From IMG/VR virus record IMGVR_UViG_3300027963_000305, positions 1 to 25,659 of that record: 25,659 nt of DNA. One strand, written 5' to 3'. Position numbers and translations under genes: made by a program. Source of the DNA: a virus. This document shows, one piece after another, positions 2,320-23,906 of this stretch (positions are counted from its first letter, which is position 1; every line of letters starts with the position of its first letter). The notes below the pieces were generated by a model, which was not told where the DNA came from, did not search any database, and was given only the letters and a program-made list of their open reading frames with translations.

Positions 2320-2350
2320 TAAAAACACTTTTAAGATTAAAAATAGTTAT
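2320..2350 (-). promoter_or_regulatory. Putative phage late promoter, copy A (before protease unit)
   Basis: Read on the minus strand this is a perfect ATAACTATTTTT, 10 nt, then a perfect GTGTTTTTA. The TAA stop of the tape-measure gene is embedded in the first box. Only 4 nt separate the second box from the protease ATG, so a transcript starting there would be leaderless or nearly so. The same sequence and spacing recur at 14877-14907, 17426-17456 and 21432-21462. Promoter function is inferred. Confidence 0.6.
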
Positions 2351-4452
2351 CCCCCAACAAATGTAGCTGCTCTACTAGTCCTTCTATCTAATGCTTGTTG
2401 TGATGAAACTTCACCACTTACAACATAAGCTTTCAGAGGAGCTTGTGCTTTGTTAATTGATTGTGCAATTGCAGTAGATGGATTTTGTCCACCACTAACA
2501 TTTATCGTAGGTGCAGCTGCTCCACCAACTTTTGGTGTTGGTATATTTGGTGCTGCACCAATTGAACCTCCACTACCTCCACCAGTTACACCGGCTTGAG
2601 ATGCTGCAGAATTAATTTGTTGTATTGATTTAACTGCTGATGCAATTGTTGATGCAATACTTAAACCTGCTGATATAGTATTAATTAATACCCACGGAGC
2701 TCCAAATGTTAAAGGTGATGCTGCAACTGCTTTTGCATTTGCTATACCTGTATTTGCAACAATTTGTCCGATTGATGCTGCTTGTGATATAATAATACCT
2801 GCAATTGCTAATGCTTTATTCTTACCTGCAACTTGACTCAATAGATTACCAAATTGTTCAAACAATTGTAGGTAAGCCATATTGATTTCTTGTTTGGCCT
2901 GTGCTGCAGCTTTCTCTGTTGCTATCTCTTGGTCACTAATATCCTTTCTAGCATCTGCATATTTCTTTCTGATTTGAGTTTTTTCAAATTCAGTTAATTC
3001 AGTATTTTGTAATTCAGTAGTTTCTTGTTCTTTAAGGATATCTCTTTGTTGTGTTAATCTTTGTAAGTCAGCTTCAAAGTCACCATCAATCTTTTTATTT
3101 TCAGCATCTAATGCTTCTAATTTAGTTTGTAATCCTAATAATACAATACCTCTTTCATCCTCACCTTTCTTTTTAAGTCTTTCAGTTTCTTTTTCATCTA
3201 ATTCCTTCTTCTTATCAGCATCTTCTTCTGCAAACTTCTTTCTCATTGTAGCAAGTTCTGCCTGAAGACCTGTTTCTAATATTGTAGTGTCTTGTTTATA
3301 CTTTGTAGCAGTTGCAATTAATGCAGCATACTTTTGATTTATTTCATATTCAGTTCTATCTCTTTCATCCAAAGTTGCTTTGAATGCGTCTTCTTCACCT
3401 TTTCTAACTTCACCTAATTCTTGGTCTCTTAATCTTTTTAATTCATCTAACTCTCTTTGTTTCTGAGCTATCTTCTTATCACTTGCAACTTTATTTTTAC
3501 CAGCTAACTCTTTATTCTTTGCTTCCTCTTCTTTTAACTCATCTGCTTTATTATTTAATCCTACTTCTTGTGCAGTTGCATATGCATCTTTTGTTGCCTG
3601 TTGTCTTTTAGTTAAATTATCTCCTAACTTTTTAAGACCTTCTGCATCTGCTTTACCTAAATTATCATTATATAATTTTACAGCTTCTTGCTCATCTTTA
3701 TATGCCTGTTCGTATGTATCTTTAGCCTGTCTAAATTGAGTCTCTCTAATCTTTTGTGCATCAGCACCTTGTGCTTTTAATCTAGCTAATTCAACTTTGT
3801 TTCTTCTATTTGTATCTGCTGCATTTAATTCTAATAATTCATTTTGTCTTTCTAATGCTCTATTTAATACATCCGCTGCAGCAGCTGCTTCTTTTTCACC
3901 CGTTGCCATTTCATATAATGCAGATGCTGCAGTTCCTAATAATACCACCAATGCACCAATACCTGTTGCAATTAATGCTGCTGATAATGCTTTAGCTCCT
4001 GCGGCTGCAGCAGCTTCACCAACTCCAACCTGAACAAATGATTTAGCTAAAAATCCGTTTAAGGCAGTATATGCTCTTGTGATACCTGTAAGTTCACCTA
4101 AACCTTTTGCTGCATCTGCTAAATCTTTTCCTAATTCAACAAATGATGCTTTTAAGTCAGCAAATTTTAATCCACCAAATTGTTTTAAGGTATTAACTGC
4201 ACCACTTACTTTGTTACCAATTTCACCAATCGGTCCTGGTAATTGTCCTAATACTTCCGTAAAGTTAGATGCACCAGTTCTTGCAGATTTGATTGCATCC
4301 TCTGTATCATTAATTTGTTGTTGTAGTATTTTGAACTCATTTGACCCAGCAGCAGTTTCCTTCAATTGCTTTTTAAGTTCTTTAAGAGCAGCAATAGATG
4401 GTTCTACATTGGTTTCTACATCAACCTTTACTTTTACTTGTTTGTCTGCCAT
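2347..4452 (-). CDS. Tail tape measure protein
   Basis: This is the only large, strongly coiled-coil protein of the window (701 residues). Residues 1-60 are charged helix. A long hydrophobic stretch lies at about 155-180 (ALIATGIGALVVLLGTAASALY). It is followed by about 350 residues of Lys/Glu/Ala-rich coiled coil, then a second hydrophobic region (LAIAGIIISQAASIGQIVANTG and on to ASTIASAV) and a Gly/Ala/Pro-rich tail. This domain order is typical of tape measure proteins, which fix tail length and help DNA delivery. At the usual rule of about 0.15 nm per residue, the tail would be near 100 nm (inference). The ATG at 4452 lies inside the end of the 50-residue upstream gene (19-nt overlap). 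No lysozyme or peptidase domain was recognised. Confidence 0.88.
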   Translation of the reverse strand: MADKQVKVKVDVETNVEPSIAALKELKKQLKETAAGSNEFKILQQQINDTEDAIKSARTGASNFTEVLGQLPGPIGEIGNKVSGAVNTLKQFGGLKFADLKASFVELGKDLADAAKGLGELTGITRAYTALNGFLAKSFVQVGVGEAAAAAGAKALSAALIATGIGALVVLLGTAASALYEMATGEKEAAAAADVLNRALERQNELLELNAADTNRRNKVELARLKAQGADAQKIRETQFRQAKDTYEQAYKDEQEAVKLYNDNLGKADAEGLKKLGDNLTKRQQATKDAYATAQEVGLNNKADELKEEEAKNKELAGKNKVASDKKIAQKQRELDELKRLRDQELGEVRKGEEDAFKATLDERDRTEYEINQKYAALIATATKYKQDTTILETGLQAELATMRKKFAEEDADKKKELDEKETERLKKKGEDERGIVLLGLQTKLEALDAENKKIDGDFEADLQRLTQQRDILKEQETTELQNTELTEFEKTQIRKKYADARKDISDQEIATEKAAAQAKQEINMAYLQLFEQFGNLLSQVAGKNKALAIAGIIISQAASIGQIVANTGIANAKAVAASPLTFGAPWVLINTISAGLSIASTIASAVKSIQQINSAASQAGVTGGGSGGSIGAAPNIPTPKVGGAAAPTINVSGGQNPSTAIAQSINKAQAPLKAYVVSGEVSSQQALDRRTSRAATFVGG

Positions 4453-4586
4453 GCGTGTCTTTTTATTTTATACCAAACATCTCTCCATGTTGTTGGCAAT
4501 TTATGTTTACCTTTTGCTATTTCAACTCTATCGGAAATGTTATAATGTTCTCCTGTATTCAATAATTCAATTATACCTTTTATCAT
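4434..4586 (-). CDS. Small basic protein upstream of the tape measure (50 aa)
   Basis: A complete 50-codon frame runs from the ATG at 4586 to a TAA at 4434 and overlaps the start of the tape measure gene by 19 nt in another frame. The product is basic and aromatic (MIKGIIELLNTGEHYN, then GKHKLPTTWRDVWYKIKRHAW). It fills the only gap between the preceding tail gene and the tape measure and follows a degenerate copy of the putative late promoter by 4 nt. In many phages the genes just before the tape measure encode tail-assembly chaperones, but this product is too short and unlike those families to claim that. Function unknown; coding support is position, overlap and reasonable composition. Confidence 0.55.
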   Translation of the reverse strand: MIKGIIELLNTGEHYNISDRVEIAKGKHKLPTTWRDVWYKIKRHAWQTNK

Positions 4587-4590
4587 ATCT

Positions 4591-4622
4591 TAAAAACAAT
4601 CTTTTTATTATAAATTAGTGAT
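4591..4622 (-). promoter_or_regulatory. Putative late promoter, degenerate copy B (before tape measure unit)
   Basis: On the minus strand the second box reads TTGTTTTTA (8 of 9 match to GTGTTTTTA). The first box reads ATCACTAATTTA (9 of 12), with an 11-nt rather than 10-nt spacer. It lies 4 nt before the ATG of the 50-residue gene, the same distance as at the protease unit. It is weaker than the four near-exact copies, so it is called with lower confidence. Confidence 0.4.
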
Positions 4623-6154
4623 TATAAACAACCACCACCACTACATATAGCGGTATTAGTTAAAGTTAGAGTATTTCCAACATCACCACTCACTACTGTA
4701 TAAGTTGATGAAAAATCATTTGCAATACCTGTTGGTGGAGGTGCACAATCTAGGGCACTTACAATACCTGTGGCTTCTACATTTGAATAATTACCACCAC
4801 ACTCATCACAAGTTAGTTCAACATTGATTGTATCACCAACATAAACTGTATATATTCCACTTGATGTGTTGCTTCTACTTTCAACAATTAAACCATTCAC
4901 ATAAATATCCATTTGTCCTCTTGCACCAGCTAATTCACTAAATGTCCATGATAATGTTGCACTTCCACCTGACCCACTAACAAAATAATATGAGTTAGAG
5001 AATGATGATGTTACTGCTCCACAATTTTCATACATTCTATAATATGTTGATGCAGTAGGTGCAGTAATTACTCTTGGAGAATTACATCCACCTGTATTGC
5101 TTCCACCCCATGTAGAACCATCTAATGAAGTTTGTATTGTTGTTGCAGTGCAACCAGAACATCCACTACCTGTTGTAAAGAAAATACTAATATTTCCTGA
5201 ACTAACTGATGCAGTAGTTATTGTAGGAGTGCAACAACTTCCACTTAATATAATATTAGTGCTACCTGAAATTGTAATATTGTGTCCTGCCGTAAATGTT
5301 GTTGGGAATGTTATAACCCTATCACCACTACCTGAATAAATATATTGTGTTGAACTTGTCACCGGTGTTCCATTATCTAAAGTTGTTAATGTTGCAGATG
5401 CCGTAGTATACGGGCCCCACACAGTTGAACCACCATCTTTACCTTCCATAACTACATTAGCAACTGTTCCACCTGAAATACTTTGTGAGAAATTGCCACT
5501 AAAATAATAAGCCGTTCCAGATACAATTAAGTTTGCATCTATAAATGCAGTTGGACTTGCGTTATACTCTGCCAAATTAATTGATGCAGTTGCATATGCA
5601 GTGCTACCAGTTGGTGGTGTTGGTATAGGTTGCAAATCACTCAATGTATCACCAATGATTGGCCCTAATAATTGTAAATTACAACTACCATCTTTCAATG
5701 AATAATCGTTTATTGCTCTTAAATGATAATAGTTACCTCTAAAGTTTACTACATCATTCAATTCCATTTTAATATAATCAGCTAAAGGTATAATTGCTTC
5801 ACAATTTAATAATCTTGTTTTAGGATTATAAAGGAGTGAAATATAAGTTTCCCAATAATTTGTGTAAAGACTACCGGTTGGTATTTCTCCATACGCTGCA
5901 GCTTCATTATTAAAAAGTAAGCTATCACTATTTGTTGTTGGAAAACTACCAGTTACTACATTATAGTTGTCAAAATATGGAAAACTAGTTTGTGAATAAC
6001 TAATACCTGCAGTAGTAAAACTACCGCTTTCTAACCACCATTCCTCACAATCTATCAATCCATTGTAAAAATAGATATGTGGTAAAACTCTGCTTGGATT
6101 GAAGTTTTGGTCACTAATAAATGTTGGTATGTATATTGGTATAATTTGACTCAT
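4622..6154 (-). CDS. Tail/baseplate protein with Cys-rich C-terminal modules
   Basis: This 510-residue protein has two parts. Residues 1 to about 185 contain the segment LLNCEAIIPLADYIKMELNDVV and then YYHLRAINDYSLKDGSCNLQLLGP, a pattern seen in the last tail/baseplate protein of several Bacteroidetes phage morphogenesis clusters. From about residue 190 on it is Ser/Thr/Gly-rich and contains several beta-sandwich-like (Ig/FN3-like) stretches with paired Cys (CCTP, GCSGC, TCDECGG), and it ends CSGGGCL. The C-terminal half may be a surface-exposed or receptor-contacting region, with disulphides or metal binding at the Cys pairs; this is inference. It lies 10 nt after the 678-residue gene, and a degenerate late promoter begins within its stop region. 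Confidence 0.7.
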   Translation of the reverse strand: MSQIIPIYIPTFISDQNFNPSRVLPHIYFYNGLIDCEEWWLESGSFTTAGISYSQTSFPYFDNYNVVTGSFPTTNSDSLLFNNEAAAYGEIPTGSLYTNYWETYISLLYNPKTRLLNCEAIIPLADYIKMELNDVVNFRGNYYHLRAINDYSLKDGSCNLQLLGPIIGDTLSDLQPIPTPPTGSTAYATASINLAEYNASPTAFIDANLIVSGTAYYFSGNFSQSISGGTVANVVMEGKDGGSTVWGPYTTASATLTTLDNGTPVTSSTQYIYSGSGDRVITFPTTFTAGHNITISGSTNIILSGSCCTPTITTASVSSGNISIFFTTGSGCSGCTATTIQTSLDGSTWGGSNTGGCNSPRVITAPTASTYYRMYENCGAVTSSFSNSYYFVSGSGGSATLSWTFSELAGARGQMDIYVNGLIVESRSNTSSGIYTVYVGDTINVELTCDECGGNYSNVEATGIVSALDCAPPPTGIANDFSSTYTVVSGDVGNTLTLTNTAICSGGGCL

Positions 6155-6164
6155 AATAATTTAT

Positions 6165-8201
6165 TTATAAACAAGGATATCCATAAGTTGAACAAGTATC
6201 TCCTGTATCTGTTGCAACTGCAGTTGAAGTGTTTATTGAGAATAATTCACAAGTATTATAATCTAAAATCCATTTATATCCTGTCAATGGAGTAACTCCA
6301 TATGCATCAAAGTATAATACTGCACTATCTTCTAATACACCCGTAGATGAGAATATTGTTTGATTTGCAATACCATTACAAACATATGATGGATTGGTAT
6401 TTTGTGAAATTGCATATTGACCTGGTAATTGATATGCTATTGGTTGAGGATTTAATCCACTAACACTACCTGATAAACCTGTTCCTGCAATTCTAACTAA
6501 TGGGTCAGATGCAAATGTAGTTTTAACATTAAACTCACCTTGTGAGAAAAAGTTAGCAGTATCCACATAATATGATTTACCATATTCTCTATTTGCAGCT
6601 TTAGCAAATTGTTGTGAAATATAATCAGTATCTAATGTATCTCCAAAGTTTAATTTATTTACAGCAAGATTGTTTGCTGGAATTACTTCTATATTTTTAT
6701 CTAAATTGATATACCTATTAAAATCTTTTACTTCACCCCTCTTATACCAATTATTAAATTCTTCAATTATGAATTGATTTAATCTTGTTTTATCTGGATA
6801 GATTACTAAATTGAACTTTCTTTGTAATCCAATTATGAAATCAATTTGCTTAATACCTACTGTTCCAAAAGGCATATTTGATGGAATATCTATAACTCTA
6901 CCATCAGCTGCTTGTCTTACTTCTCTAATTTCCAAATAAGATTTAGTTGTAGATTGTGGGTCTAATGTTACAAGTGGTTGAGATGTTGGAGGTGGGTTAT
7001 TTGGACTTTGTCTTAATTGAAAATAATAATTTCCTGGTGGTATATCATCTAACTTAAATTCAGTTTGTAATTCATATGTTGTATTTATACCAAAGCTACC
7101 TCTACTTTGTTGTAGTTGGTCAAAAAAGAATATATAAGATTGAATTGCACGAGTTGAATAGGGAGTTGAACTACCTGTTTCTAACATTCTTATTTGCCAT
7201 GTTCCATTTGCAGATAATGTTCCTGGCATATTATTAACAGAGCAACTTACATTCACATTTACATTTAATATACCTGAAAGATTAGTTCGTTTCTCTACTT
7301 TATATGCTGCATTATTGTAAAAGTTTTGTGGGTCTGATAATTTATTATACCAAGGAAGTGTTGTCCAACTACCTGATGGAAGAGTTCTATCTGTCATACC
7401 ACTCCCACTAATTGCACCTATTTTTATTTTACCATATGTTTCCAAATCAATATCAGAAAATTCAGGATACTTTAATGAGTTATTACAAATCATATAGGTA
7501 TCATCAATAAATGATTGTTCAAAAAATGATGATGAGTATGTATATCCTGCTTCTGCAAATATTGCATCTAATACTGGTTTTACCCTAATTGCAGGTTTGA
7601 AATTTTGAACTGTCAGTGCCCCATCTTCGTCATCCATTCCAAATAATTCATATTGTCCTGATGTAAATTGATATCCACTACCATAATCGGCAAGTGGATA
7701 AACTATATCACCATTGAAAAGATTACCACTCCAACTTGCTGTAATATTATTGTAAGATGCAGTATGATTATATGCAGATAGTGATGTTAAATCAGTTAAG
7801 AAGTTTCTGTTGATATCTCTACCAAAACTGGAAAGAGTTCCATAAATAGTTACTTCATATGAGTCAATAAATTTATTAGCAATTACATTTACTTTGTTTA
7901 ATTGAATATATCCATTTGATAAATACACAGAGTCAAAATCAAAGTATGCAGGAACTTTTATATTCGTTGCAAATAAGAATGGATTATCAATAGAGATATC
8001 ATATACATGTTCAAAGAAAGCATTATTTACTTTTGTTCCTGGAAGTGTAATCTGACGAGTAAAATCAGAAGGTAACTGACCTATATCAAATAGACCAGTT
8101 ACATTATTTGATAACTTAATATCTTCGTCTTGAAATATATCTAATTGTGTTCCGTTTGCAATTAATCTAAAAGTAAACGCTTGTGTTGATATTATACCCA
8201 T
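6165..8201 (-). CDS. Large tail/baseplate protein (678 aa)
   Basis: The protein begins MGIISTQAFTFRLIANGTQLDIF, followed by DIKLSNNVTGLFDIGQLPSDFTRQITLPGTKVN. This N-terminus is characteristic of large tail proteins found just before or after the tape measure in Bacteroidetes phages; I recognise the type but not a named family. It is predicted to be mostly beta-structured, with no membrane segments and no obvious enzyme motif. Residues near 430-520 (VGIKQIDFIIGLQRKFNLVIYPDK, then FNNWYKRGEVKDFNRY) resemble hub-like regions. The C-terminus ends DTCSTYGYPCL, a two-Cys ending similar to that of the next gene. It starts 1 nt after the stop of the 387-residue gene, so the two are tightly coupled. 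Confidence 0.72.
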   Translation of the reverse strand: MGIISTQAFTFRLIANGTQLDIFQDEDIKLSNNVTGLFDIGQLPSDFTRQITLPGTKVNNAFFEHVYDISIDNPFLFATNIKVPAYFDFDSVYLSNGYIQLNKVNVIANKFIDSYEVTIYGTLSSFGRDINRNFLTDLTSLSAYNHTASYNNITASWSGNLFNGDIVYPLADYGSGYQFTSGQYELFGMDDEDGALTVQNFKPAIRVKPVLDAIFAEAGYTYSSSFFEQSFIDDTYMICNNSLKYPEFSDIDLETYGKIKIGAISGSGMTDRTLPSGSWTTLPWYNKLSDPQNFYNNAAYKVEKRTNLSGILNVNVNVSCSVNNMPGTLSANGTWQIRMLETGSSTPYSTRAIQSYIFFFDQLQQSRGSFGINTTYELQTEFKLDDIPPGNYYFQLRQSPNNPPPTSQPLVTLDPQSTTKSYLEIREVRQAADGRVIDIPSNMPFGTVGIKQIDFIIGLQRKFNLVIYPDKTRLNQFIIEEFNNWYKRGEVKDFNRYINLDKNIEVIPANNLAVNKLNFGDTLDTDYISQQFAKAANREYGKSYYVDTANFFSQGEFNVKTTFASDPLVRIAGTGLSGSVSGLNPQPIAYQLPGQYAISQNTNPSYVCNGIANQTIFSSTGVLEDSAVLYFDAYGVTPLTGYKWILDYNTCELFSINTSTAVATDTGDTCSTYGYPCL

Positions 8202-8202
8202 A

Positions 8203-9366
8203 TTACATTATTAACTTATAAGGTTGTCCATATTGGAAATCAAATTGATATTGAATTAACTTATCAACTACTCCTGTTTTGAATACAATATTTTGTGTAA
8301 CGATAGTTAATGGTCTTACTGAATTAGTTGCTTCGTTATATACCCAATAAATCTCATCAGATACTAATAATTGTTTTAGAATATCATTATAAGTTTCAGG
8401 CAACCAGTTTGTATTTACCTGTAATCCTTGTTTACTATCTACGATATATGCAAGATTTGCTGAGTCGTATGGTTGATAGGATAGTGTTGAACTTTCCCAT
8501 GTTCCTAATTGTGGTTGATAAGTTCTTCTTTCAGTTTCAAAAGATTGTTTGCTTATCATATTAAAGTTTAGATAATCAAATTGTCCATATCTATTTTTCC
8601 ACTTAATTCTTACATTTGGATATTTTTGTTGACAAGTTAAATCATAACGAACAGAAGTTCCTAATGGACTTGCTCCGTTATATGCTTGAACAGCAAACCA
8701 TTCTAATCCTATTGTTGAAAGAGGGAAACCACTTTGAGTTGGCCCTATTGGATATGTTGCAATTTGTGCAGATGAAGATGTGTTACCACTAACTGCATAA
8801 TTAGCACTTCCTAAATTAGAAGTATAAACTACTTTTGTTGGACTAGTTGAACCCACATTACCAACATATACACCTGATGTTCCAACATTTGAGTCAAAAC
8901 AACTTTGAGAAACTGGCCCGTCAGTCATCAACGGCCAATAAACAGACGATGTAAATAATTGTTGTCCTATTGGTTCTTGAAATACTCCATATCCATCTAA
9001 TGCTTTATAAACATTTGATTTAACATGTGAGCCTGTTACAAATGTTGACCCACTTTTGTATTGATAATAAAAATCAACTGCAAAGTATTTTACATTTGAT
9101 GGGTTAGCAATTGCTAAATCAGTAAGAGTTGAATTGATTATTCTATTCAAATCAAAGATACCTACATTTTGTGTATTAGGATATTTTACAATTGTGTAAT
9201 CAGGAACACTTCCTGAATTTGATACAGAGCCAGTCCAATAGTATAATTCACCAAAATATTGAAATGAAGATGATGTATATACAGGTGTGCTTTCTAGCAC
9301 CGAAAATATAATTGGTGATTGAGCTAAAGATGCTGTTGCTGGTGTTTGTGTAAACGATAATGACAT
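8203..9366 (-). CDS. Tail protein, distal tail or baseplate (387 aa)
   Basis: A beta-rich protein of 387 residues. It starts MSLSFTQTPATASLAQSPIIFSV and has a conserved-looking middle (GIFDLNRIINSTLTDLA, FAVDFYYQYKSG). Its C-terminal part is VRIKWKNRYGQFDYLNFNM, followed by YNDILKQLLVSDEIYWVY and QYQFDFQYGQPYKLIM. Proteins of this type occur together with the 678- and 510-residue types as a three-gene tail block in Bacteroidetes phages. Unusually for this genome, AAAGGA sits 8 nt before the ATG and could act as a Shine-Dalgarno. The gene opens a transcription unit after a 52-nt intergenic gap holding a degenerate late-promoter motif. Exact role (distal tail, hub or tip) cannot be fixed from sequence alone. 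Confidence 0.7.
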   Translation of the reverse strand: MSLSFTQTPATASLAQSPIIFSVLESTPVYTSSSFQYFGELYYWTGSVSNSGSVPDYTIVKYPNTQNVGIFDLNRIINSTLTDLAIANPSNVKYFAVDFYYQYKSGSTFVTGSHVKSNVYKALDGYGVFQEPIGQQLFTSSVYWPLMTDGPVSQSCFDSNVGTSGVYVGNVGSTSPTKVVYTSNLGSANYAVSGNTSSSAQIATYPIGPTQSGFPLSTIGLEWFAVQAYNGASPLGTSVRYDLTCQQKYPNVRIKWKNRYGQFDYLNFNMISKQSFETERRTYQPQLGTWESSTLSYQPYDSANLAYIVDSKQGLQVNTNWLPETYNDILKQLLVSDEIYWVYNEATNSVRPLTIVTQNIVFKTGVVDKLIQYQFDFQYGQPYKLIM

Positions 9367-9383
9367 TTCTTTTTTCCTTTATA

Positions 9384-9413
9384 TAAAAACCACTAAATTC
9401 AAAAAAGTATGTG
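9384..9413 (-). promoter_or_regulatory. Putative late promoter, degenerate copy C (before tail block)
   Basis: On the minus strand a GTGGTTTTTA sequence (one extra G compared with GTGTTTTTA) lies 17 nt before the ATG at 9366. It is preceded by CACATACTTTTTT, a shortened version of ATAACTATTTTT. Spacing is altered by the indels. It is listed because it sits at the only sizeable gap of this part and at the start of a gene block, just like the exact copies. Confidence 0.35.
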
Positions 9414-9418
9414 ATACC

Positions 9419-9829: not shown

Positions 9830-9830
9830 A

Positions 9831-11800: not shown

Positions 11801-11814
11801 ATTATTATTTTATT

Positions 11815-12669: not shown

Positions 12670-12677
12670 AGTTTTAA

Positions 12678-13196
12678 TTATAATTGTATACCGCCGAAGT
12701 ATTGATTACTTTGGTCAGGATAGATTTGTGTTTGGTTACCAACTGATTGTAAGTATTGAGGAATGTTTGCAGAATATGCAATTAGATAGTTTTGTAATCT
12801 TAATGCATAATAATCAGCATTTGATAATGCTTTAGCTAACAAATAATCAATCTCACTTTTAGATGGTGCCGTTCCTTGGTCACTTTGTTGTTTAACACTA
12901 CCATTAGATTTGAATTGAACAGAACTAAATGGAATATATTCAACTGATGAATACCATATTAAAGTATTTTTAATGTAATCATCTAATAAGTCTTGATAAT
13001 ATACACTCAATTGTGCTACAGTCCCAGCAGTTATTTGGTCTTGTAAAAAATCAAAAAGAACAGTTCCTAATAAGTTCTTTAAGTATTTATCTTGTGCAGT
13101 TCTAACGAATGGCAATAAAGCATCAGCATCAATTGCACCTTGCAACGGAGTGTTCTTTATAATATCGTTTCTGTTTATGAATAATGCGTATGACAT
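12678..13196 (-). CDS. Head-tail connector, DUF6712-like
   Basis: A 172-residue, mostly helical protein. It starts SYALFINRNDIIKNTPLQGAIDADALLPFVRTAQDKYLKNLLGT (positions 2-45), then DYIKNTLIWYSSVEYIPFSSVQFKSNGSVKQQSD. The pattern of an N-terminal INRxDI with AQDKYLKNLLGT is that of DUF6712-type proteins, found directly downstream of portals in Bacteroidetes phages and regarded as head-tail connector or adaptor proteins. It lies 2 nt after the portal stop and 8 nt before the next gene. The function is family- and context-based. Confidence 0.72.
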   Translation of the reverse strand: MSYALFINRNDIIKNTPLQGAIDADALLPFVRTAQDKYLKNLLGTVLFDFLQDQITAGTVAQLSVYYQDLLDDYIKNTLIWYSSVEYIPFSSVQFKSNGSVKQQSDQGTAPSKSEIDYLLAKALSNADYYALRLQNYLIAYSANIPQYLQSVGNQTQIYPDQSNQYFGGIQL

Positions 13197-13198
13197 AG

Positions 13199-14485
13199 TT
13201 ATTTTTTATTATATATTTCGTATTCTTTTGAATTTACTTCCATCATTGAGAACTTTTGGTCTTCCAAGTTAGGGTCAGTCACTACTGCATCTTGTCCATC
13301 ATCGGTTGTTGATGGATTTTCCATTGATTTGTTAGTTTCATCTTCAACCTGTCCTACTGTTTTACCAGTTTCTTCTGCAGTTTGTGATAAAATTACTAAT
13401 GGAGTTAATTGTTCAAAATATAATTCAGTATCCGTATATCCTGAACAAGTTAATGCGTAATCCAATGTATTTAAGATTAAGTTTTGGAATGGAGCAATAG
13501 TCATTGTTTGCATGATGCTAAATGCTGTTTTCATTTCCTCACTTTGTGAACTGAAACCATTATTCTTTGTTCTAATACCAAATAATAAAGGAGAAGTTAC
13601 TCTATGTGAAACTAATATTCTATCTTGAACATAATCTGCAACATAATCGTATTTCTCATGTAAGTTTTCAATGTTAATTACATCAATTGTAGGTTTAGTA
13701 GCAGGGTCATCGTTGAATGATAACATAAATCTACCAGCGTTATCCGTTCCTGTAAACTTTGCTTGAATTAAATCTTCAATAGTTTCTCTTTCTTCAGGTG
13801 CAGGAACTCCATTATTGAAGTTAATCATTACTGCAGGTAAGAAACCATTAGTAATGTTATTGTAATGTAAATTAGCTATCTCACCTTCTGAAATTGCTAA
13901 TTGTAAAGATGAAATCCAATCAGGAAGGGAATAATAGTATAAACCTGGACAATAGTTCTTAATGTAAAGTATTTCTAACTTTTCTTCTGATGTTTCAAAA
14001 GCAGGTATCTTCTTTTTCTCTTTAATCTTTCTGTTATCATGCCAATCAACACAATAATAATAGTTTTCTATCTTTGGATTACCATATAGTTTTTCAGCAC
14101 GAAGTGTTTGCACTGGAATATGATACATCTTCTTTATTTTTGTATGTGTATCATCCCAATATACTTGAAATGCTGCATTACCAAACAATTTCAAATCAAA
14201 CGATACTCTTTTTAAGTCCTCTTGTGGAACTAATTTTTGTAATGTTTCGTTAAAGGCTTCATTTTTAGAATAAACTCCTTTACCAAATATTAAATCAGCA
14301 ATACCTTCAACCGATGCTGCATTAGTTGTTGAAACATTAAATGCTGCAATTATTGCATCAAAGAAATCATCTTGTCCATAAACACCAAATGGTATCCATG
14401 AGTAACGAGTTCTCGTATCTTCCGTAATTATTGGAAGTTGATTATTATTTACATTTACAATTGCGAAATTTTGTTTTCCTTTCAT
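13199..14485 (-). CDS. Portal protein
   Basis: At 428 residues it fits the usual portal length. It contains the portal hallmarks: an N-terminal DDFFDAIIAAFN, a wing region with LKLFGNAAFQVYWDD and KMYHIPVQTLRAEKL, and the segment GLYYYSLPDWISSLQLAISEGEIANLHYNNI. These are followed by GNxxxFMLSFND-like (NAGRFMLSFNDD) and SHRVTSPLLFGIR, and finally a crown region with FNSQSEE-like FSSQSEEMKTAFSIMQ. The C-terminus is acidic and Gln/Glu-rich (EETGKTVGQVEDETNK). Portals form the 12-subunit DNA channel and bind the terminase. The gene begins 1 nt after the 123-residue gene and unusually lies downstream of the capsid and tail-tube genes. Confidence 0.85.
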   Translation of the reverse strand: MKGKQNFAIVNVNNNQLPIITEDTRTRYSWIPFGVYGQDDFFDAIIAAFNVSTTNAASVEGIADLIFGKGVYSKNEAFNETLQKLVPQEDLKRVSFDLKLFGNAAFQVYWDDTHTKIKKMYHIPVQTLRAEKLYGNPKIENYYYCVDWHDNRKIKEKKKIPAFETSEEKLEILYIKNYCPGLYYYSLPDWISSLQLAISEGEIANLHYNNITNGFLPAVMINFNNGVPAPEERETIEDLIQAKFTGTDNAGRFMLSFNDDPATKPTIDVINIENLHEKYDYVADYVQDRILVSHRVTSPLLFGIRTKNNGFSSQSEEMKTAFSIMQTMTIAPFQNLILNTLDYALTCSGYTDTELYFEQLTPLVILSQTAEETGKTVGQVEDETNKSMENPSTTDDGQDAVVTDPNLEDQKFSMMEVNSKEYEIYNKK

Positions 14486-14486
14486 A

Positions 14487-14858
14487 TTAGTTCATTATTA
14501 TGTATTTGTTTTCACTTACGTGTGAAGTGATTGGAGGTATTTGGTTTTCATATACGGATTTATCTATACTTTGAGATGCATATACTTGAACTGAACCTCT
14601 CCATATATCAACACTACCTGTTGGAGTTCCATTATATAATACTGCACGATATTCAGATGCAACAATTGCACCACTTATACTTGCAGTAAACCCTATATAA
14701 CTTTGGTATCCTTCATAAGTTATACCAGACATAGATGCAGTAAATGTTTGCAATGTAGTCATATCAGTCAAAGACATTGTAAATTCATTCAATGTAGATG
14801 CTGTTGGCTCGGTTCTAAAGGTATATGAGTTGCTTTGTGAGATATAATAACTCTGCAT
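14487..14858 (-). CDS. Small beta-rich structural protein (123 aa)
   Basis: The protein starts MQSYYISQSNSYTFRTEPTAS and has a repeated beta pattern (SLTDMTTLQTFTASMSGITY, YEGYQSYIGFTASISG, SEYRAVLYNG). It continues with SVDIWRGSVQVYASQSIDKSVYENQI and ends SENKYIIMN. It looks like a small Ig-like or fibre-head domain of the type found near portals in Bacteroidetes phages. I cannot name a family. It is the first gene of the portal unit, 18 nt after an exact copy of the putative late promoter, and 1 nt before the portal gene. A decoration, neck or head-fibre role is possible. Confidence 0.68.
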   Translation of the reverse strand: MQSYYISQSNSYTFRTEPTASTLNEFTMSLTDMTTLQTFTASMSGITYEGYQSYIGFTASISGAIVASEYRAVLYNGTPTGSVDIWRGSVQVYASQSIDKSVYENQIPPITSHVSENKYIIMN

Positions 14859-14876
14859 TATCTATAATTTATATAA

Positions 14877-14907
14877 TAAAAACACCACTTTATCTAAAAA
14901 TAGTTAT
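14877..14907 (-). promoter_or_regulatory. Putative phage late promoter, copy D (before portal unit)
   Basis: A perfect ATAACTATTTTT, a 10-nt spacer and a perfect GTGTTTTTA are read on the minus strand, 18 nt before the ATG at 14858. The site lies just downstream of a strong intrinsic terminator that closes the capsid/tail-tube unit. A new promoter is needed here for the portal unit, which supports the promoter reading. Confidence 0.68.
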
Positions 14908-14913
14908 GACAAT

Positions 14914-14941
14914 AAAAAAACCCCACTCGTTTGAGTAGGGT
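14914..14941 (-). terminator. Rho-independent terminator after the tail-tube gene
   Basis: On the minus strand ACCCTACTC pairs with GAGTGGGGT around an AAAC loop, a 9-bp stem with one G-U pair. Seven T follow immediately. It lies 25 nt after the stop of the tail-tube-like gene and is the clearest terminator in the window. It would isolate the scaffold-capsid-tail-tube unit from the portal unit. Confidence 0.88.
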
Positions 14942-14966
14942 CTAATATTTTAAGTCATAATATTAT

Positions 14967-15521: not shown

Positions 15522-15546
15522 ATTATTTTAATTTAATTTGTTTGTT

Positions 15547-15573
15547 AAAAGGTGGGAGTTTTACCTCCCGACC
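15547..15573 (-). terminator. Hairpin after the capsid gene, possible attenuator
   Basis: On the minus strand GGTCGGGAG pairs with CTCCCACC around a 6-nt loop, with one bulged C, followed by only four T. It lies 11 nt after the capsid stop. It may be a partial terminator that lowers read-through to the tail-tube gene, or a 3'-end stabiliser or processing hairpin of capsid mRNA. The short T-run makes full termination doubtful. Confidence 0.5.
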
Positions 15574-15584
15574 TTAATTATTTT

Positions 15585-16610
15585 TTAGTAAGCTCCGTAG
15601 TAAACGATGTCTTGACCTACACCAAACTGAACACCAGCAGTGTATCTCATGATAATTCTGTAATTTTGAGAACCATCAATGTTAGCCATATCAATCACCT
15701 TAACTTCATTTGTGTCAGACATCAAACCTGTTCCGAAGAATAAGTTAGATTTTTGAGCTGCAACTAATTTAGATGCAGTCATACCTGGACATAATACTAA
15801 ATCAATACCATTGAAGTTGTATGGTTTTTCACCAACTGTAAATTGATTTTGGTAACCATTAGCACCACCATTTGCAGTTCCAGTTGAAGCAGGAACAGAT
15901 GTTTGACCTGCTAATGCTAATTGATAAGCTTTAGCTACATTCGTAGGAACATAGATAACTAAATCTTGCTTACCATAAACTGTATCAGGGATAGTGTCAA
16001 CTACTGATTGTAATTTAGAGATTACATTCGCAGATGTAATACTACCAGAGATAATTGCAGAACCACTTCCTGCGCTTCTTGCAGGTAAAACTGCAGTTGC
16101 ACCACCCGCTGCTACTGAAGCAGAAAGGATAAGTTGGAAACCATTAAATTCACCATTTGTTGTTCCGTTACCTGCCCAAATAGATTGTTCAATAGCTTGA
16201 GCTACATTACCACCTACATAAGAGATTAAGAAATCGTTAAAGTTTTTAGGGATTTCATCAAAAGCTGAGAAACCTAATTGTAAGGCATTCCAGCTATCTA
16301 CGAATTGTTGCTTACATAATTGTAAGTTAACTTGAAACTCTTCAGGAACTAAAACCTGTTCAGAGATTGATGCTGTTGCAGTTGCGTTAAAATCGCAAGA
16401 TGCATCAGAGATTAAAGAAGATAAGGCTAATTTTTGGATAACGCTCTTAAATTTTACATTTGGCATTATCGTAACTAACTTCTTATCCAATGTGTTTGCA
16501 GATAATAACGCTGCTGCGATATATCCACTTGCGGCTTCACCTGCGTATGAAGAGTTACCGGTTGGGCCGATACCTTCTGGCATTGTGCCGAATTTTTGAA
16601 TTTTGTTCAT
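15585..16610 (-). CDS. Major capsid protein, HK97-fold type
   Basis: At 341 residues it has the size of an HK97-fold capsid protein. The N-terminal arm (1-30) contains PEGIGPTGNSSYAGEAASGY. Features further on are KLVTIMPNVKFKSVIQKLAL, a Cys/Ala-rich stretch, VPEEFQVNLQLCKQQFVDSW, FLISYVGGNVAQAIEQSIWAG near the middle (typical spine helix and P-domain start), YVPTNVAKAYQLAL and a C-terminal VIDMANIDGSQNYRIIMRYTAGVQFGVGQDIVYYGAY. The last phrase is typical of Bacteroidetes-phage capsid proteins. The SSYAGE hexapeptide at 20-25 is repeated near the C-terminus of the protease, suggesting N-terminal maturation cleavage nearby. It lies directly after an acidic scaffold-like gene. The start codon lacks a Shine-Dalgarno. 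Confidence 0.85.
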   Translation of the reverse strand: MNKIQKFGTMPEGIGPTGNSSYAGEAASGYIAAALLSANTLDKKLVTIMPNVKFKSVIQKLALSSLISDASCDFNATATASISEQVLVPEEFQVNLQLCKQQFVDSWNALQLGFSAFDEIPKNFNDFLISYVGGNVAQAIEQSIWAGNGTTNGEFNGFQLILSASVAAGGATAVLPARSAGSGSAIISGSITSANVISKLQSVVDTIPDTVYGKQDLVIYVPTNVAKAYQLALAGQTSVPASTGTANGGANGYQNQFTVGEKPYNFNGIDLVLCPGMTASKLVAAQKSNLFFGTGLMSDTNEVKVIDMANIDGSQNYRIIMRYTAGVQFGVGQDIVYYGAY

Positions 16611-16639
16611 GTTAATTCGTTTTTTGTTTTTTAATTATT

Positions 16640-17404
16640 TTAATTATAAAGTTTAGATAAGAAAGAACCTTGTGGGTCTTGTATTTTCTTACCATAATTT
16701 TTTCTATTTGCTTCAAACTTTAAGATAGAATTTGTATCTTCAATTGGAGCACCATCTAATTTAGGTAACTCTTCTTCGTCAACTTCAGCCATTTTAATAC
16801 CATCTACTTCTTGAGCTACTTCTGATGATAATGGTGGCATCATTGCTTGTTCCATGTTCATCATTTTCTTTTCCATCTCTTCAATTCTGTAAGCCATTTT
16901 CTCCATCATCTTTTTCAAGTCAATATTGATTGTGCCACTTTCCTCACTATCATCTTCCATTGGTTCACCATCCGTTTCAGGCATGTTAGGGTCAACTTCA
17001 TCAGTTGTTTCAGCCATCTTTAGAGTTCCTGATGTTACTTGACCTTTTAAGTCAGGCATCACATTCTCTTTGTCTTCGTTACCAACTGCAGGGATAGGTT
17101 CAGTTTTAACCATGTCAGCATCAACATCAGCCATCTCAACATTTTCTCTTTCAACGATTTTACCGTCTTCAGATTTTACTTTTAATAAAGTTTCGTTTCC
17201 TTCTGTGTCTTTCAACATCAAATCGTGGAAACCATTTGGAGCTGGAGATTTTGTTCCATCTTCTGAAACTACAAACAAGTCTTCACCAACATCAAATGTT
17301 GCAGACTCTACAATTGTTCCATCAGCTAATTTAGCGTAAGTCATTTCTACTTCATCTTTTGATAAAAGTCCTAATATCTTACTTAATACTGTTTTTGAGT
17401 TCAT
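16640..17404 (-). CDS. Acidic scaffold-like protein preceding the capsid gene
   Basis: A 254-residue, strongly acidic and Met/Glu-rich protein. Residues 1-100 contain a beta-like module (TYAKLADGTIVESATFDVGEDLFVVSEDG, positions 22-50). The middle is disordered and acidic (EVDPNMPETDGEPMEDDSEE). Residues about 160-190 form a coiled coil (KKMMEKMAYRIEEMEKKMMNMEQAM), and the C-terminus is FEANRKNYGKKIQDPQGSFLSKLYN. Position immediately upstream of the capsid gene, acidity and a coiled coil are the marks of a scaffold or prohead core protein. No enzymatic motif is visible. It opens the capsid unit behind an exact late-promoter motif. The scaffold role is inferred. Confidence 0.72.
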   Translation of the reverse strand: MNSKTVLSKILGLLSKDEVEMTYAKLADGTIVESATFDVGEDLFVVSEDGTKSPAPNGFHDLMLKDTEGNETLLKVKSEDGKIVERENVEMADVDADMVKTEPIPAVGNEDKENVMPDLKGQVTSGTLKMAETTDEVDPNMPETDGEPMEDDSEESGTINIDLKKMMEKMAYRIEEMEKKMMNMEQAMMPPLSSEVAQEVDGIKMAEVDEEELPKLDGAPIEDTNSILKFEANRKNYGKKIQDPQGSFLSKLYN

Positions 17405-17425
17405 ATTTTAATTGTTTATATAAGG

Positions 17426-17456
17426 TAAAAACACCTTTTGTTAAAAAAATCGTTAT
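17426..17456 (-). promoter_or_regulatory. Putative phage late promoter, copy E (before capsid unit)
   Basis: On the minus strand ATAACGATTTTT (one mismatch, AAC core kept), a 10-nt spacer and a perfect GTGTTTTTA lie 21 nt before the ATG at 17404. It starts right after the stop of the 50-residue gene. A small AAGGT/ACCTT inverted repeat surrounds the second box only in this copy. Confidence 0.62.
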
Positions 17457-17457
17457 T

Positions 17458-17610
17458 TTAATTTATTTCTTCTAAAGTATTTAATATAGTATCATCTGCT
17501 ACATCTATTGTTTCATATATCCATCCATTATTTAAGGATGTATAATATGTTGTAGGATTAGCATCTACTATCAATTCTTTATCTTCTTTGGTTAATTTGA
17601 ATACTTGCAT
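17458..17610 (-). CDS. Small acidic protein at end of fibre cassette 1 (50 aa)
   Basis: A complete frame of 50 codons runs from an ATG at 17610 to a TAA at 17458, 10 nt after the stop of the beta-propeller gene. The product is acidic (MQVFKLTKEDKELIVDANPTT at the start, then WIYETIDVADDTILNTLEEIN at the end) with a plausible mixed secondary structure. No family is recognised. It fills nearly all of the space between the adhesin gene and the late promoter of the capsid unit, which supports coding. It may be a fibre-assembly chaperone or a short virion protein; there is no direct evidence for either. Confidence 0.55.
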   Translation of the reverse strand: MQVFKLTKEDKELIVDANPTTYYTSLNNGWIYETIDVADDTILNTLEEIN

Positions 17611-17620
17611 AGTTTATTTG

Positions 17621-18763
17621 TTATCTCATTCTTGCTATAATACCATTATATTCTGCTAATGCAGTTGCAGTTGCAGCTGGAACATTAGATGCAGTCATTT
17701 TATATAAAGTTGTTCCTTGACCAAAGTAAATATGACCATTTACATCCATAACACACCATTGTAAGTTTTGTTGTGGAGCTGTAAAATAACTAACAGAGTT
17801 TGCAATTGGATTATAAGTGTAAGCATTGTTTGTTCCAAAAGTTGGATTACCAAACACATATATTAAACCATCAGCCCCCATGACAGAAGCCTGTGCTCTA
17901 ATATCAGTTACACTTCCTAAAACGGATGTTCCTCCATTTGTTGATGGTGTTATTTGCCATATATTGCTTGCACCATATGCTGGGAATGTATAAGCATATC
18001 CATCATAGTGTGTGCAGACAGTTCTATATATGTCAGAAGTATTTCCTAATGCAGATACAAATTCATTAGTATCAGTATTTGCATTCCACACGTGAAGACC
18101 TCCACCAGAACCTCCACCACTTCCCATATAAAGTTTTCCATTAGCTGCCATCATACCTGTTAAGGTATCACCTTGACTAGTTACTGGACTTAATGATGTA
18201 GCAGTATTGTTAAGAGTATCTACTTTGAACCATGTATTGCTTGAAAACCAACCATTACCATAAATGTATCTTCCATCATATCCTGAACCATAAATGCTAC
18301 CATAATTACCTGTTACTGGATTTGCAATAGATGCAGCTATGGTATCTGTTAATGTATCAACTACTACAATATATCCATTTGCTACAAAATATACACATTT
18401 ACTATAATCATTATAATATCCTGTATAGTTTACTAATCCATACGGAGATGTTATATTAGTCATTGTGCTAGTGTTGGTATTCCAAACATAGATTGTTGTT
18501 CCACCATCACCTGCCATATAGATTTTACCATTTCTGGCCAATTTACCACCAAATATATTGCTTCCTAATGATGTTGATATTGAAGCTGGTGCTGAATATG
18601 TTACACCATTACCTACTGCAAATACACTACTCGCAGCTGATAACCATTGTGCAGTTTCAGTTGATGTCCAAGTTCGTATTGATTGGTCAGGAAATACTGC
18701 AGCCGCTGGTGCAGCTGCTCCTTTTACTTTTAATCTATTAAATCCAAAGTTTTGAAATATCAT
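17621..18763 (-). CDS. Beta-propeller adhesin, fibre-cassette partner
   Basis: The 380-residue protein has at least five recurring blade-like units of the form (N/D)G-(K/L/H)-IY-(M/V/F) followed by (V/T)-W/Y-N-x-N-T. Examples are ARNGKIYMAGDGGTTIYVWN, GYDGRYIYGNGW, MAANGKLYMGSG, GADGLIYVFGN and DVNGHIYFGQG. This is the pattern of Kelch- or NHL-like beta-propellers, which often bind proteins or sugars. Residues 1-60 (MIFQNFGFNRLKVKG, Ala-rich, then IRTWTSTETAQWL) likely attach it. Its ATG overlaps the stop of the 786-residue fibre by one base (TAATG), as in the LamG-like adhesin pair. It is therefore probably the receptor-binding tip of fibre 1. Ligand unknown. Confidence 0.75.
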   Translation of the reverse strand: MIFQNFGFNRLKVKGAAAPAAAVFPDQSIRTWTSTETAQWLSAASSVFAVGNGVTYSAPASISTSLGSNIFGGKLARNGKIYMAGDGGTTIYVWNTNTSTMTNITSPYGLVNYTGYYNDYSKCVYFVANGYIVVVDTLTDTIAASIANPVTGNYGSIYGSGYDGRYIYGNGWFSSNTWFKVDTLNNTATSLSPVTSQGDTLTGMMAANGKLYMGSGGGSGGGLHVWNANTDTNEFVSALGNTSDIYRTVCTHYDGYAYTFPAYGASNIWQITPSTNGGTSVLGSVTDIRAQASVMGADGLIYVFGNPTFGTNNAYTYNPIANSVSYFTAPQQNLQWCVMDVNGHIYFGQGTTLYKMTASNVPAATATALAEYNGIIARMR

Positions 18764-21123
18764 TATATCATTTTTAATGTTGATACTACATTCACCTTTG
18801 AAGAGTTAAATGCTACAAATGAAAGTATATCATTTGAACCACTTACAGATGCAGTATATGCACTTCCTGATGGTTGTAATACATTTGAACTCCATACGAT
18901 TGTTGAAGATGTTACACCATTCAATGCTAAAGTAGATGTTACTCCACCTTTCAAATTACTTACTTCAATTCTAATAGGAGATACACTTGCACTTAATTCA
19001 AAGTAGTTTCCTAAATTGAAATTCATTGATGCGGTATTAGAGGTTACACTCATTGATACTACATTACCGAATGCACTACCTGTTAAACTTAAACTACCTG
19101 AAATACTTTGACTTCCGATAAATGAGTTAGAGCCTGTTGTTGCGTAACTACCTGTTAAGTTTCCTAATGTAGTATTCTTTGTATCTTGTGATGCAGTGAA
19201 ACTATTCAATGCAGTAATGTCAGTTGTTACTGCACTACCTGTATTAACTGTAATGTTAAATGTAGATGCATCACCCTTTGTAAATGTAATTGTGTTAAGA
19301 TTTACCGAAGCGGTTACTAATGAACTTGCAGTGATTGCAGATGTTACATAACTTCCAGTTTGTCCTGCTAAGTTACTCCATTTAGTATCGTTAGATGCAG
19401 TATAAGAGTTTAATGATGTGTTACCATTACTTGCTGTAAATGTATTTAAGTTAGTCAATGAACTATTTACACTTGCAGTATAAGTAGCTAATGTTGAGTT
19501 CTTTGTATTTTGTGATGCAGTGAAAGCATTAAGAGAACTAATATCAGTTGACCCTGTCGCTACTGGAAGTCCGTTAATTGTTAAAGTTCCTTGCACCTTA
19601 ACACTACCTGAAAGAGTTTGTATGTCTGATAACTCATCTCCGAATTGATTTGAACCACTAGAATAAATTACACTAGCCGTTTCATAAGTTGTTTGAACAT
19701 ATTGGAATGATGCAGATACTGCAGTTATGTTTGTGAATGTTTGATTAACACTAAAGTTATTATCTACATTCGTTCTTGCAAAAGAAGCAGTTTCACTTTC
19801 AGTAATCCAACTTCCAGATTGAGTTCCCAATGTAGAGAACTTTGTATCAATACTTGCGGTATATGTTGCAAGTGTAGAGTTTTTAGTATCTTGTGAAGCA
19901 GTGAATGAATTTAATGAAGAAGTTACATTTGCAAGAGTTGTATTCTTTGTATCTTGTGATGCAGTAAATGCATTCAATGAAGTTAAAGGAATTTGTCCTG
20001 GTAGATTTGTTAATGCACTACCATCACCTTTGAAATAAGAAGCAGTTACTGCTCCTGTTACTGATATAGATGATGATACCGATAAATTACCATTAGGTAT
20101 TAATATTGTCAAATTACCTGGGTTAAGAGGTATTTGTGTTTGTATTAAATCTACATATGCAGTTCCGCCTTGGAAATAAGTTCCTTTGATTTCAGCAGAT
20201 GCAGATATAGATTGAAATATTTGTGAACTTGTAAATCTATTAGTTGCGTTAGTTACTGCAAAACTACCTGTCTCACTCTCTGTAATCCAACTGCCTGATT
20301 GTGAACCTATGTTAGAAAACTTTTGGTCAACCGATGCAGTATATGTAGCAAGTGTAGAGTTCTTTGTATTTTGAGATGCAGTGAATGCATTTAATGATGT
20401 AATGTCAGTTGTTTGTGCACTACCTGTATTAACAGTTACTGCAAATGTTGTATTATCACCTTTGGTAAAAGTTAATGTATTTAAGTTTACACTAGCAGTA
20501 ATTAAGAATGAACCACTTTCGGTTTCAGTTACCCAACTACCAGATTGTGTTCCTAAATTACTCCACTTTGTATTATTAGATGAAGTATAAGCATTTAGTG
20601 ATGCAGTTACATTTGCAAGTGTTGTATTCTTTGTTTCTTGTGATGAAGTGAATTGATTTGTGCTAGATGTAAATTGATTAATACTAGCAGTCAAAGAATT
20701 AAAAGAAGATGTCGTTACTAAATTGTTTGTGTTAACAGATATAGTTGCGATACCAGCTTGAAGACTTGCACTAATGTTTGAACCACTAAAATTTAATTGA
20801 GTTGCATATCCTAATAAAATACCTTCATCAGATATAGGAATTGCAACTGATGCAGTTATGTTTGTTAATTTGCTACCATCTCCTACGAATACACTTGCCG
20901 AAACAAATGATGAAGCAGAGATAGATGTAAATGAGTTTGCTTGTGTAAAATCGTTACTACCTGTTGTGATAGCATAACTGCCAGTATTAAGACTATCTAC
21001 AAGTGTGTCTATAACACCTGTATTAAAATCCCTTAATACTTGTGGTGTAATTGCACCCGTAGTATTGTCAGGAAATGAACTAGCGTTTGATGCTGATAAT
21101 TGATTTTTGGTTAATATCGCCAT
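18763..21123 (-). CDS. Large repetitive tail fibre, paralogue 1 (786 aa)
   Basis: A Ser/Thr/Asn-rich fibre without Cys. The N-terminus (MAILTKNQLSASNASSFPDN, then ITPQVLRDFNTGVIDTLVDS) is a typical virion-attachment segment in aquatic Bacteroidetes-type phages. Residues about 140-690 repeat a unit like SLNAFTASQDTKNTTLA followed by TYTASVDQKFSNIG and SQSGSWITESETGSFA, at least five or six times and imperfectly. In between are VFVGDGSKLTNI and YFKGDGSALTNLPGQ turns and one SVIYSSGSNQFGDELSDIQTL block. The last 100 residues match the C-terminus of the 404-residue fibre. The protein likely forms a long trimeric shaft whose tip is the overlapping beta-propeller protein. Sitting between terminase and capsid genes is unusual for a fibre. 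Confidence 0.8.
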   Translation of the reverse strand: MAILTKNQLSASNASSFPDNTTGAITPQVLRDFNTGVIDTLVDSLNTGSYAITTGSNDFTQANSFTSISASSFVSASVFVGDGSKLTNITASVAIPISDEGILLGYATQLNFSGSNISASLQAGIATISVNTNNLVTTSSFNSLTASINQFTSSTNQFTSSQETKNTTLANVTASLNAYTSSNNTKWSNLGTQSGSWVTETESGSFLITASVNLNTLTFTKGDNTTFAVTVNTGSAQTTDITSLNAFTASQNTKNSTLATYTASVDQKFSNIGSQSGSWITESETGSFAVTNATNRFTSSQIFQSISASAEIKGTYFQGGTAYVDLIQTQIPLNPGNLTILIPNGNLSVSSSISVTGAVTASYFKGDGSALTNLPGQIPLTSLNAFTASQDTKNTTLANVTSSLNSFTASQDTKNSTLATYTASIDTKFSTLGTQSGSWITESETASFARTNVDNNFSVNQTFTNITAVSASFQYVQTTYETASVIYSSGSNQFGDELSDIQTLSGSVKVQGTLTINGLPVATGSTDISSLNAFTASQNTKNSTLATYTASVNSSLTNLNTFTASNGNTSLNSYTASNDTKWSNLAGQTGSYVTSAITASSLVTASVNLNTITFTKGDASTFNITVNTGSAVTTDITALNSFTASQDTKNTTLGNLTGSYATTGSNSFIGSQSISGSLSLTGSAFGNVVSMSVTSNTASMNFNLGNYFELSASVSPIRIEVSNLKGGVTSTLALNGVTSSTIVWSSNVLQPSGSAYTASVSGSNDILSFVAFNSSKVNVVSTLKMI
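19150..20710 (-). repeat. Imperfect coding repeats of the fibre shaft
   Basis: The unit encoding FTASQ(D/N)TKN(S/T)TLA recurs near 19175-19215, 19498-19540, 19865-19915, 19942-19980, 20359-20400 and 20629-20664. DNA identity between copies is high over about 40 nt (for example TTTGTATCTTGTGATGCAGT on the plus strand). Such repeats can recombine and change shaft length. Confidence 0.75.
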
Positions 21124-21136
21124 ATCTTTATTTTAT

Positions 21137-21418
21137 TTATATCGTAATTTCAAAACCTGAGCTAAAGCCTGAAGAGAATGGACCTGTAAGCACTACTGCT
21201 TCAGGAGCAAATTGTATGTTACCAATACCTTGTTGCATCAATGCACCTTTACAACATGCAACATCATAGGTATCACTATTCAAACATAGACATCCTCTTC
21301 TGCTATTCTTTGGTGAACTTAATCCTCTAGTAGGCCCAATGTATACTCCTGATGCATTCTCTCTATTGACAGAATAACGAAGATTACCATTGCGACTGTT
21401 AGACCACTTACCACTCAT
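21137..21418 (-). CDS. Small Cys-containing structural protein (93 aa)
   Basis: The 93-residue product starts MSGKWSNSRNGNLRYSVNRENASGVY. In the middle it has the phrase RRGCLCLNSDTYDVACCKGALMQQGIG, with four Cys as C-x-C and C-C at about residues 43-58, and it ends in a Gly/Ser/Phe-rich stretch (GPFSSGFSSGFEITI). I know this RGCxC...CC-G pattern from phage structural clusters of aquatic Bacteroidetes-type phages, but not a function. Paired Cys could bind a metal or form disulphides. The gene opens fibre cassette 1, 13 nt behind an exact late-promoter motif and 13 nt before the fibre ATG. It may be a fibre-attachment protein. Confidence 0.7.
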   Translation of the reverse strand: MSGKWSNSRNGNLRYSVNRENASGVYIGPTRGLSSPKNSRRGCLCLNSDTYDVACCKGALMQQGIGNIQFAPEAVVLTGPFSSGFSSGFEITI

Positions 21419-21431
21419 AGTTTCATTTTAA

Positions 21432-21462
21432 TAAAAACACTAATTAACGGAAAAATAGTTAT
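21432..21462 (-). promoter_or_regulatory. Putative phage late promoter, copy F (before fibre cassette 1)
   Basis: Perfect ATAACTATTTTT, a 10-nt spacer and perfect GTGTTTTTA on the minus strand, 13 nt before the ATG at 21418. The first box contains the TAA stop of the -1-frame extension of the upstream gene, as the protease-unit copy contains the tape-measure stop. Confidence 0.66.
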
Positions 21463-23863: not shown

Positions 23864-23906
23864 AGTATTTTAATTGTATTTTACTATTATATAAACACAT
23901 CTTATA

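Follow-up and report, generated by a model that had tools for sequence, protein, structure and literature searches.

Some phages redirect the RNA polymerase of their host to middle and late genes with sigma factors of their own, e.g., gp28 and gp34 of SPO1 and gp55 of T4, all of them essential for infection (PMC9429907). As in the phage analysed here, phiEco32 gp36 (and gp32 of phage SU10) pairs a phage sigma, which uses the host RNA polymerase, with a short phage-specific motif (tAATGTATAtA, 6-8 nt before the start) found before a few middle and late units (PMC4281155). Our consensus differs from that motif and, unlike phiEco32, this phage has two boxes (a -10 element of the TGTTTTTA type and a -35 element of the TAAC type), probable leaderless mRNAs and several specificity types; the host group and the type of phage differ as well. 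By analogy, both systems would work alike, without being of the same sequence class. The sigma subfamilies and the promoter sequences of SPO1 and T4 are also different from those described below. The ECF promoters of Flavobacterium (SM6, F. psychrophilum), in contrast, form a host regulon, while ours belong to a phage and have a -10 that begins with TGT and not with CGT. The kind of system is thus known (phiEco32 gp36, SPO1, T4), and for phages of Bacteroidota it is apparently new; a literature search on late transcription control in these phages found no paper.

The virus record and its genes

The window (the whole stretch of DNA that was analysed) is a virus record of 25,659 bases in which almost every gene is on the minus strand. 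It contains a late block with terminase, fibre region, capsid, portal, tail, tape measure and XkdF-like protease, and its upstream end covers the last part of an operon that includes a sigma-factor gene. The genes referred to by name below are:

1254-2315, minus strand, XkdF-like protease (Pfam Peptidase_S78_2)
13199-14485, minus strand, portal protein (matches to Phage_portal and portal_PBSX, both weak)
15585-16610, minus strand, probable major capsid protein (MCP), named from its position in the gene order
22393-23577, minus strand, terminase large subunit, TerL (Pfam Terminase_3)
23543-23863, minus strand, terminase small-subunit-like ORF (TerS)
24977-25525, minus strand, ECF-type sigma factor of 182 aa, just upstream of the terminase block

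A close relative (G001) of 34,317 bases has a terminal overlap of 123 bases and is therefore probably a complete, circularly read genome of ca. 34.2 kb. The host is probably a member of the freshwater Bacteroidota. The sole cultured relative found for this phage group infects a flavobacterium. None of the curated families matched the MCP ORF above cut-off, and a distant match was gene 02 of Nonlabens phage P12024L. Capsid relatives in the GTDB set were restricted to one contig of a Bacteroidia MAG and one contig binned as an archaeon. The latter (L306, CP070803.1) is part of a MAG labelled Woesearchaeota; the capsid relative under this archaeal label is probably a binning error or a free phage.

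A bipartite motif ahead of the late units

The starting point was the original prediction that a bipartite motif, ATAACTATTTTT-N10-GTGTTTTTA, recurs on the minus strand at six places, each shortly before the first gene of a structural block, and that it is the late promoter of the phage. All six sites stood, three exact, one with a single mismatch and two degenerate; the count did not, as a seventh copy before the terminase had been overlooked. The upstream half is called here box 1 and the downstream half box 2. The copies, together with a terminator, are:

2320-2350, minus strand, predicted promoter copy, exact, 32.1 bits; precedes the XkdF-like protease ORF 1254-2315; has orthologous copies
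4591-4621, minus strand, predicted degenerate promoter copy, box 2 TTGTTTTTA; kept in register in relatives
9384-9414, minus strand, predicted degenerate promoter copy, box 1 CACATACTTTT, box 2 TGGTTTTTA; precedes the tail-region ORF 8203-9366
14877-14907, minus strand, predicted promoter copy, exact, 29.6 bits; precedes ORF 14487-14858 and the portal gene
14918-14943, minus strand, intrinsic terminator of the capsid unit, an 11-pair stem and then a T tract; just upstream of the portal-unit promoter
17426-17456, minus strand, predicted promoter copy, one mismatch, 34.6 bits; precedes ORF 16640-17404 and the capsid unit
21432-21462, minus strand, predicted promoter copy, exact, 31.4 bits; precedes ORF 21137-21418 and the fibre cassette
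23890-23920, minus strand, seventh, weak predicted promoter copy, TTACTAACAAATAATATAAGATGTGTTTATA, box 2 TGTTTATA; precedes the TerS-like ORF 23543-23863 and TerL

These numbers are far above chance. Four matches with up to 3 mismatches were found in the window against 0.03 expected, and four were reached in none of 100 shuffles. The motif is confined to the coding strand of the window, and a search of either strand for GTGTTTTTA gave no occurrence outside these copies. With a 31-column matrix trained on 18 sites from relatives (the window and G001 were left out) the four strong copies scored 29.6-34.6 bits, against 10.3 bits for the next best place in the window and 15.7 for the best of 30 shuffled genomes. 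Both degenerate copies had a low score with this matrix; they align in the same register, with no gaps, and relatives keep them at the same places. On the strength of this conservation we take the two as real. Box 2 of the copy at 4591-4621 is 4 nt from the ATG of the small ORF 4434-4586, behind which comes the tape-measure-like ORF 2347-4452. At the site orthologous to 9384-9414 box 2 reads GGTTATTA in the type B genomes described below and GGTTAAA in type C. At the terminase site box 2 is intact in close relatives, TGTTTTTA in three genomes (L122, L018, G016) and TGTTATTA in four (G007, G006, G002, L148), and it reads TGTTAGATA in G010.

The distance from box to start codon is 4 to 21 nt in the window, as had been claimed. 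At 2320-2350 the end of box 2 is 4 nt from the ATG. In this copy and in that at 21432-21462, box 1 shares bases with the stop codon of the gene or ORF before it. The strong terminator said to stand before the 14877 copy is a terminator-like hairpin (14943-14918) located just upstream.

The late genes of ca. 20 genomes are syntenic with the window, their proteins often being just 30-80% identical, and in nearly all of them the motif is found before the same genes. A generic pattern (T.[AC]..A[TC]-N15-box 2) was applied to 13 genomes that belong to the two main types and include the window, and it gave 59 matches on the coding strand and one on the reverse strand. All but one of the former (58/59) are at syntenic places, upstream of late units, of the terminase or of a small non-coding RNA. 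The expectation that matches would lie only upstream of late units was borne out except for the copy before this RNA, which belongs to the early region. A looser pattern applied to whole records gave the same picture, and a reversed control pattern gave 0 matches. As far as comparison of sequences goes, the sites and their conservation can be read directly from these genomes.

Aligned on box 2, the upstream half has the consensus wTAACtAYTTTT, and 17 positions upstream of the T of TGTT there is an A in all type A and B copies and in 97% of those of type C. Box 2 is the better-conserved half of the motif and comes in four types, A (TGTTTTTA, that of the window phage), B (TGTTATTA), C (TGTTAAA) and D (TGTTAGA). 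The type is uniform within a genome, with 3 exceptions of one site each among 64 records compared. Type C and D genomes have a weak box 1, and in every genome box 1 is weak at two or three sites. For the distant relative G015, a search for repeat pairs did not recover its motif.

The small RNA is found in relatives, upstream of the sigma gene and outside the window (L050:6717-6892; about 12,820-12,970 in G001). It is conserved and structured, has ca. 120 nt and ends in a terminator, and is also present in L019, L053, L098, L125, L127, L130, L136, L146, L158, L165, L175 and L179. On its 5' side there is a copy of the motif (TTAACTATATTT-N11-TGTTWTTA); its stems show compensatory changes, one loop is conserved (CGCTATTCAGCATT), and the terminator has a variable stem with a similar loop. 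No Rfam family matched it at its threshold; a match to mir-2943 nearby, sub-threshold and on the wrong strand, was discarded as chance. In the upstream parts of L125:47-222 and L165:8343-8518 the phage motif and a promoter of host type (TTG-N20-TATATTTG) overlap; L158, L175 and L179 lack the latter. There are hints here of a double promoter, early plus late.

The phage sigma factor and the types of box 2

The original prediction included neither the sigma gene, nor the terminase copy, nor the co-variation between sigma and motif. ECF (group IV) sigma factors consist of regions 2 and 4 only, have about 160-200 aa and match a sigma-70 superfamily profile. ORF 24977-25525 has this size and matches NCBIfam TIGR02937 (sigma70-ECF) with 49.0 bits over residues 25-173 (cut-off 42.9), as well as the sigma factor family PHROG_1740. 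Its predicted structure (mean pLDDT 85.6) has an ECF fold, the top PDB matches being ECF sigma factors (sigma L, H, E, K, W) with probability near 1, a best E of 1.2e-3 and low TM values (0.33-0.49), in line with what a different placement of the two domains would give. A viral fold search retrieved mostly other phage sigma factors. No recognisable relative was found in the bacterial genomes of the GTDB set, and tblastn against named phages gave no match. The gene itself has no copy of the motif and in most relatives directly follows an upstream gene. ECF promoters were taken to have AAC in the -35 and a CGT-like -10, 16-17 nt apart; the window has AAC-N18-TGTT and P12024L AAC-N17-CGTT. We propose that the product of this ORF is the cognate factor of all seven copies.

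P12024L (Inhavirus), a cultured phage of a marine flavobacterium and a distant relative, is a parallel case. It has a sigma-70 region 2 gene (P12024L_35) just upstream of the terminase, whose product can be aligned with the window sigma family (hhalign E 4e-8; ca. 27% identical over 124 columns). The gene order (sigma, terminase, capsid, portal) and the presence of a bipartite motif before gene blocks are as in the window phage. The motif is different, AAAAC-N17-CGTTAATA, occurring seven times with up to 2 mismatches (0.4 expected) and on one strand (L307:145-27607); the AAC-to-TGTT spacing of the window (18) is one nt longer. The -10 of P12024L starts with CGTT, as in flavobacterial ECF promoters (motif SM6, PMC9723704), and this speaks for reading TGTT in the window as an ECF-type -10. 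Its copies are exactly 4 nt from the ATG in six of the seven cases and 3 nt in the other. The annotated record of P12024L includes no promoter annotation.

Box type was mapped on trees of the sigma factor and of other genes, all with the same rows. The sigma tree, in which type A is a clade, requires 3 changes of box type, the minimum possible for four types. The numbers for the other trees are 12 (TerL), 10 (p21566), 8 (MCP), 9 (pre-capsid), 6 (portal), 10 (p21137), 8 (protease) and 16 (TerS). Even the neighbours of the sigma gene behave like this, with 10 changes for each of the two genes directly upstream and 9 for the downstream neighbour p24525, where sigma needs 2. A single type A clade is rejected by TerL (p-AU 2e-42) and by p21137 (p-AU 1e-4). 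TerL is located between sigma and the p21137 promoter, so linkage alone would predict the opposite pattern. Individual genomes illustrate the same point: compared to the window, L148 has a TerL 95% identical, a sigma 64% identical and type B promoters, L060 has 94% and 53% with type C, and G009, with only 42% in TerL and 80% in sigma, has type A. As the box types are few and phylogenetically clustered, only a small number of switches underlies the co-variation, and short proteins give noisy trees. The sigma assignment and its co-variation with box type can, like the sites, be read from the genomes.

TerL itself has been swapped between otherwise diverged genomes, being ca. 95% identical where sigma is just 53-64% identical.

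The sigma residues that best separate types A and B are 66, 70, 71, 74 and 77, within a predicted helix (66-85), plus 27 and 28. Five of these seven fall in the stretch 54-78 (p = 6e-4, for a stretch chosen after the residues were seen). ECF sigma factors read the -10 element with the helix that follows the region 2.3 loop, and we would regard helix 66-85 of the model as the equivalent of that helix.

Proposed mechanism and its alternatives

We give a probability of ca. 0.9 to the reading that the motif corresponds to late promoters read by the host RNA polymerase with the phage ECF-type sigma. Box 1 (wTAACtAYTTTT) would be the -35 element and box 2 (TGTTTTTA in the window phage) the -10 element, both read by host polymerase carrying the product of ORF 24977-25525. 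The sigma gene sits in an upstream, presumably early, operon and its product, once made, would activate the terminase and fibre units, those of capsid, portal and tail, and the tape-measure and protease units. The original prediction of a late promoter is in this way supported, and from the same sites we infer promoter activity, timing and transcript starts. Transcription would begin ca. 5 nt past box 2, so that the first mRNAs of two units, protease and tape measure, probably lack a leader. Wherever box 2 was recognised, across all loci, it is never less than 4 nt from the start codon, and exactly 4 nt is the commonest distance before the protease and before the small gene that precedes the tape measure. 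This floor suggests starts at about the A of the ATG, i.e., leaderless mRNAs, which in F. psychrophilum are just 5.5% of the mapped mRNAs (PMC9723704).

Generic sigma-70 promoter scans remained at background level, and host-type early promoters in G001 (1 coding-strand match vs. 6 on the reverse strand) gave no reliable map. The primary sigma of Bacteroidota was taken to use TTTG at -33 and TAnnTTTG at -7, and box 1, alone or with an unseen element, could be a promoter of this kind, with box 2 as an element of the transcribed 5' leader. TATTTTT does resemble TAnnTTTG, and TATATTTG overlaps box 1 at the early small-RNA site. However, the coding strand of the window has no match to the host consensus TTG-N19-23-TAHHTTTG, in agreement with the misfit to the house-keeping promoter pointed out in the original prediction, and it is box 2 that is better conserved, often lies just 4 nt before the ATG and has a type that tracks the phage sigma; we find this very improbable. 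Another phage regulator, co-inherited with sigma, might own the motif as its promoter or operator, and in the phiEco32 group a small phage protein does act on some middle and late promoters (PMC4281155). The genes right next to sigma fail to follow box type, though, and the separating residues are in the expected -10-reading helix, which makes it very improbable, even if a further phage protein might conceivably act alongside sigma.

The copies are at module borders, and modules are exchanged among these phages, as the conflicting trees indicate, so boundary sequences guiding recombination, and not promoters, would also be found at such places. These should follow their flanking genes, but the copies follow the distant sigma gene instead, and we consider this highly improbable. 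Hardly credible at all is a translation signal (ribosome-binding or Kozak-like) of highly expressed genes. The motif is indeed just ahead of start codons, and Bacteroidota lack Shine-Dalgarno sites and prefer A-rich leaders (PMC6847099), but the distance from box 2 to the ATG goes from 4 to about 30 nt across loci while the spacing between the two boxes is fixed. Besides, the motif is absent before the genes inspected inside units (e.g., p12678 and p916), it tracks sigma, and one of its copies precedes a non-coding RNA.

Under the preferred reading, late promoters served by a phage sigma, the sigma-promoter pairs might act as specificity types, an extension that we offer tentatively and consider rather doubtful. 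When the -10 helix changes, all seven or more promoters would follow; late genes would not be cross-activated between co-infecting types; module exchange would occur only together with, or be followed by, a promoter change; and most late mRNAs of P12024L and some of the window phage would be leaderless by design.

Late transcription control is little studied in phages of Bacteroidota, and what we have here is a testable regulon with its factor, derived solely from sequence, both for an uncultured group that has been widely sampled and for the cultured P12024L. The natural gene swaps among the relatives amount to an experiment that ties one sigma allele to all its promoters, and the named sigma residues that track the -10 sequence may help to read the code of region 2 in ECF sigma factors.
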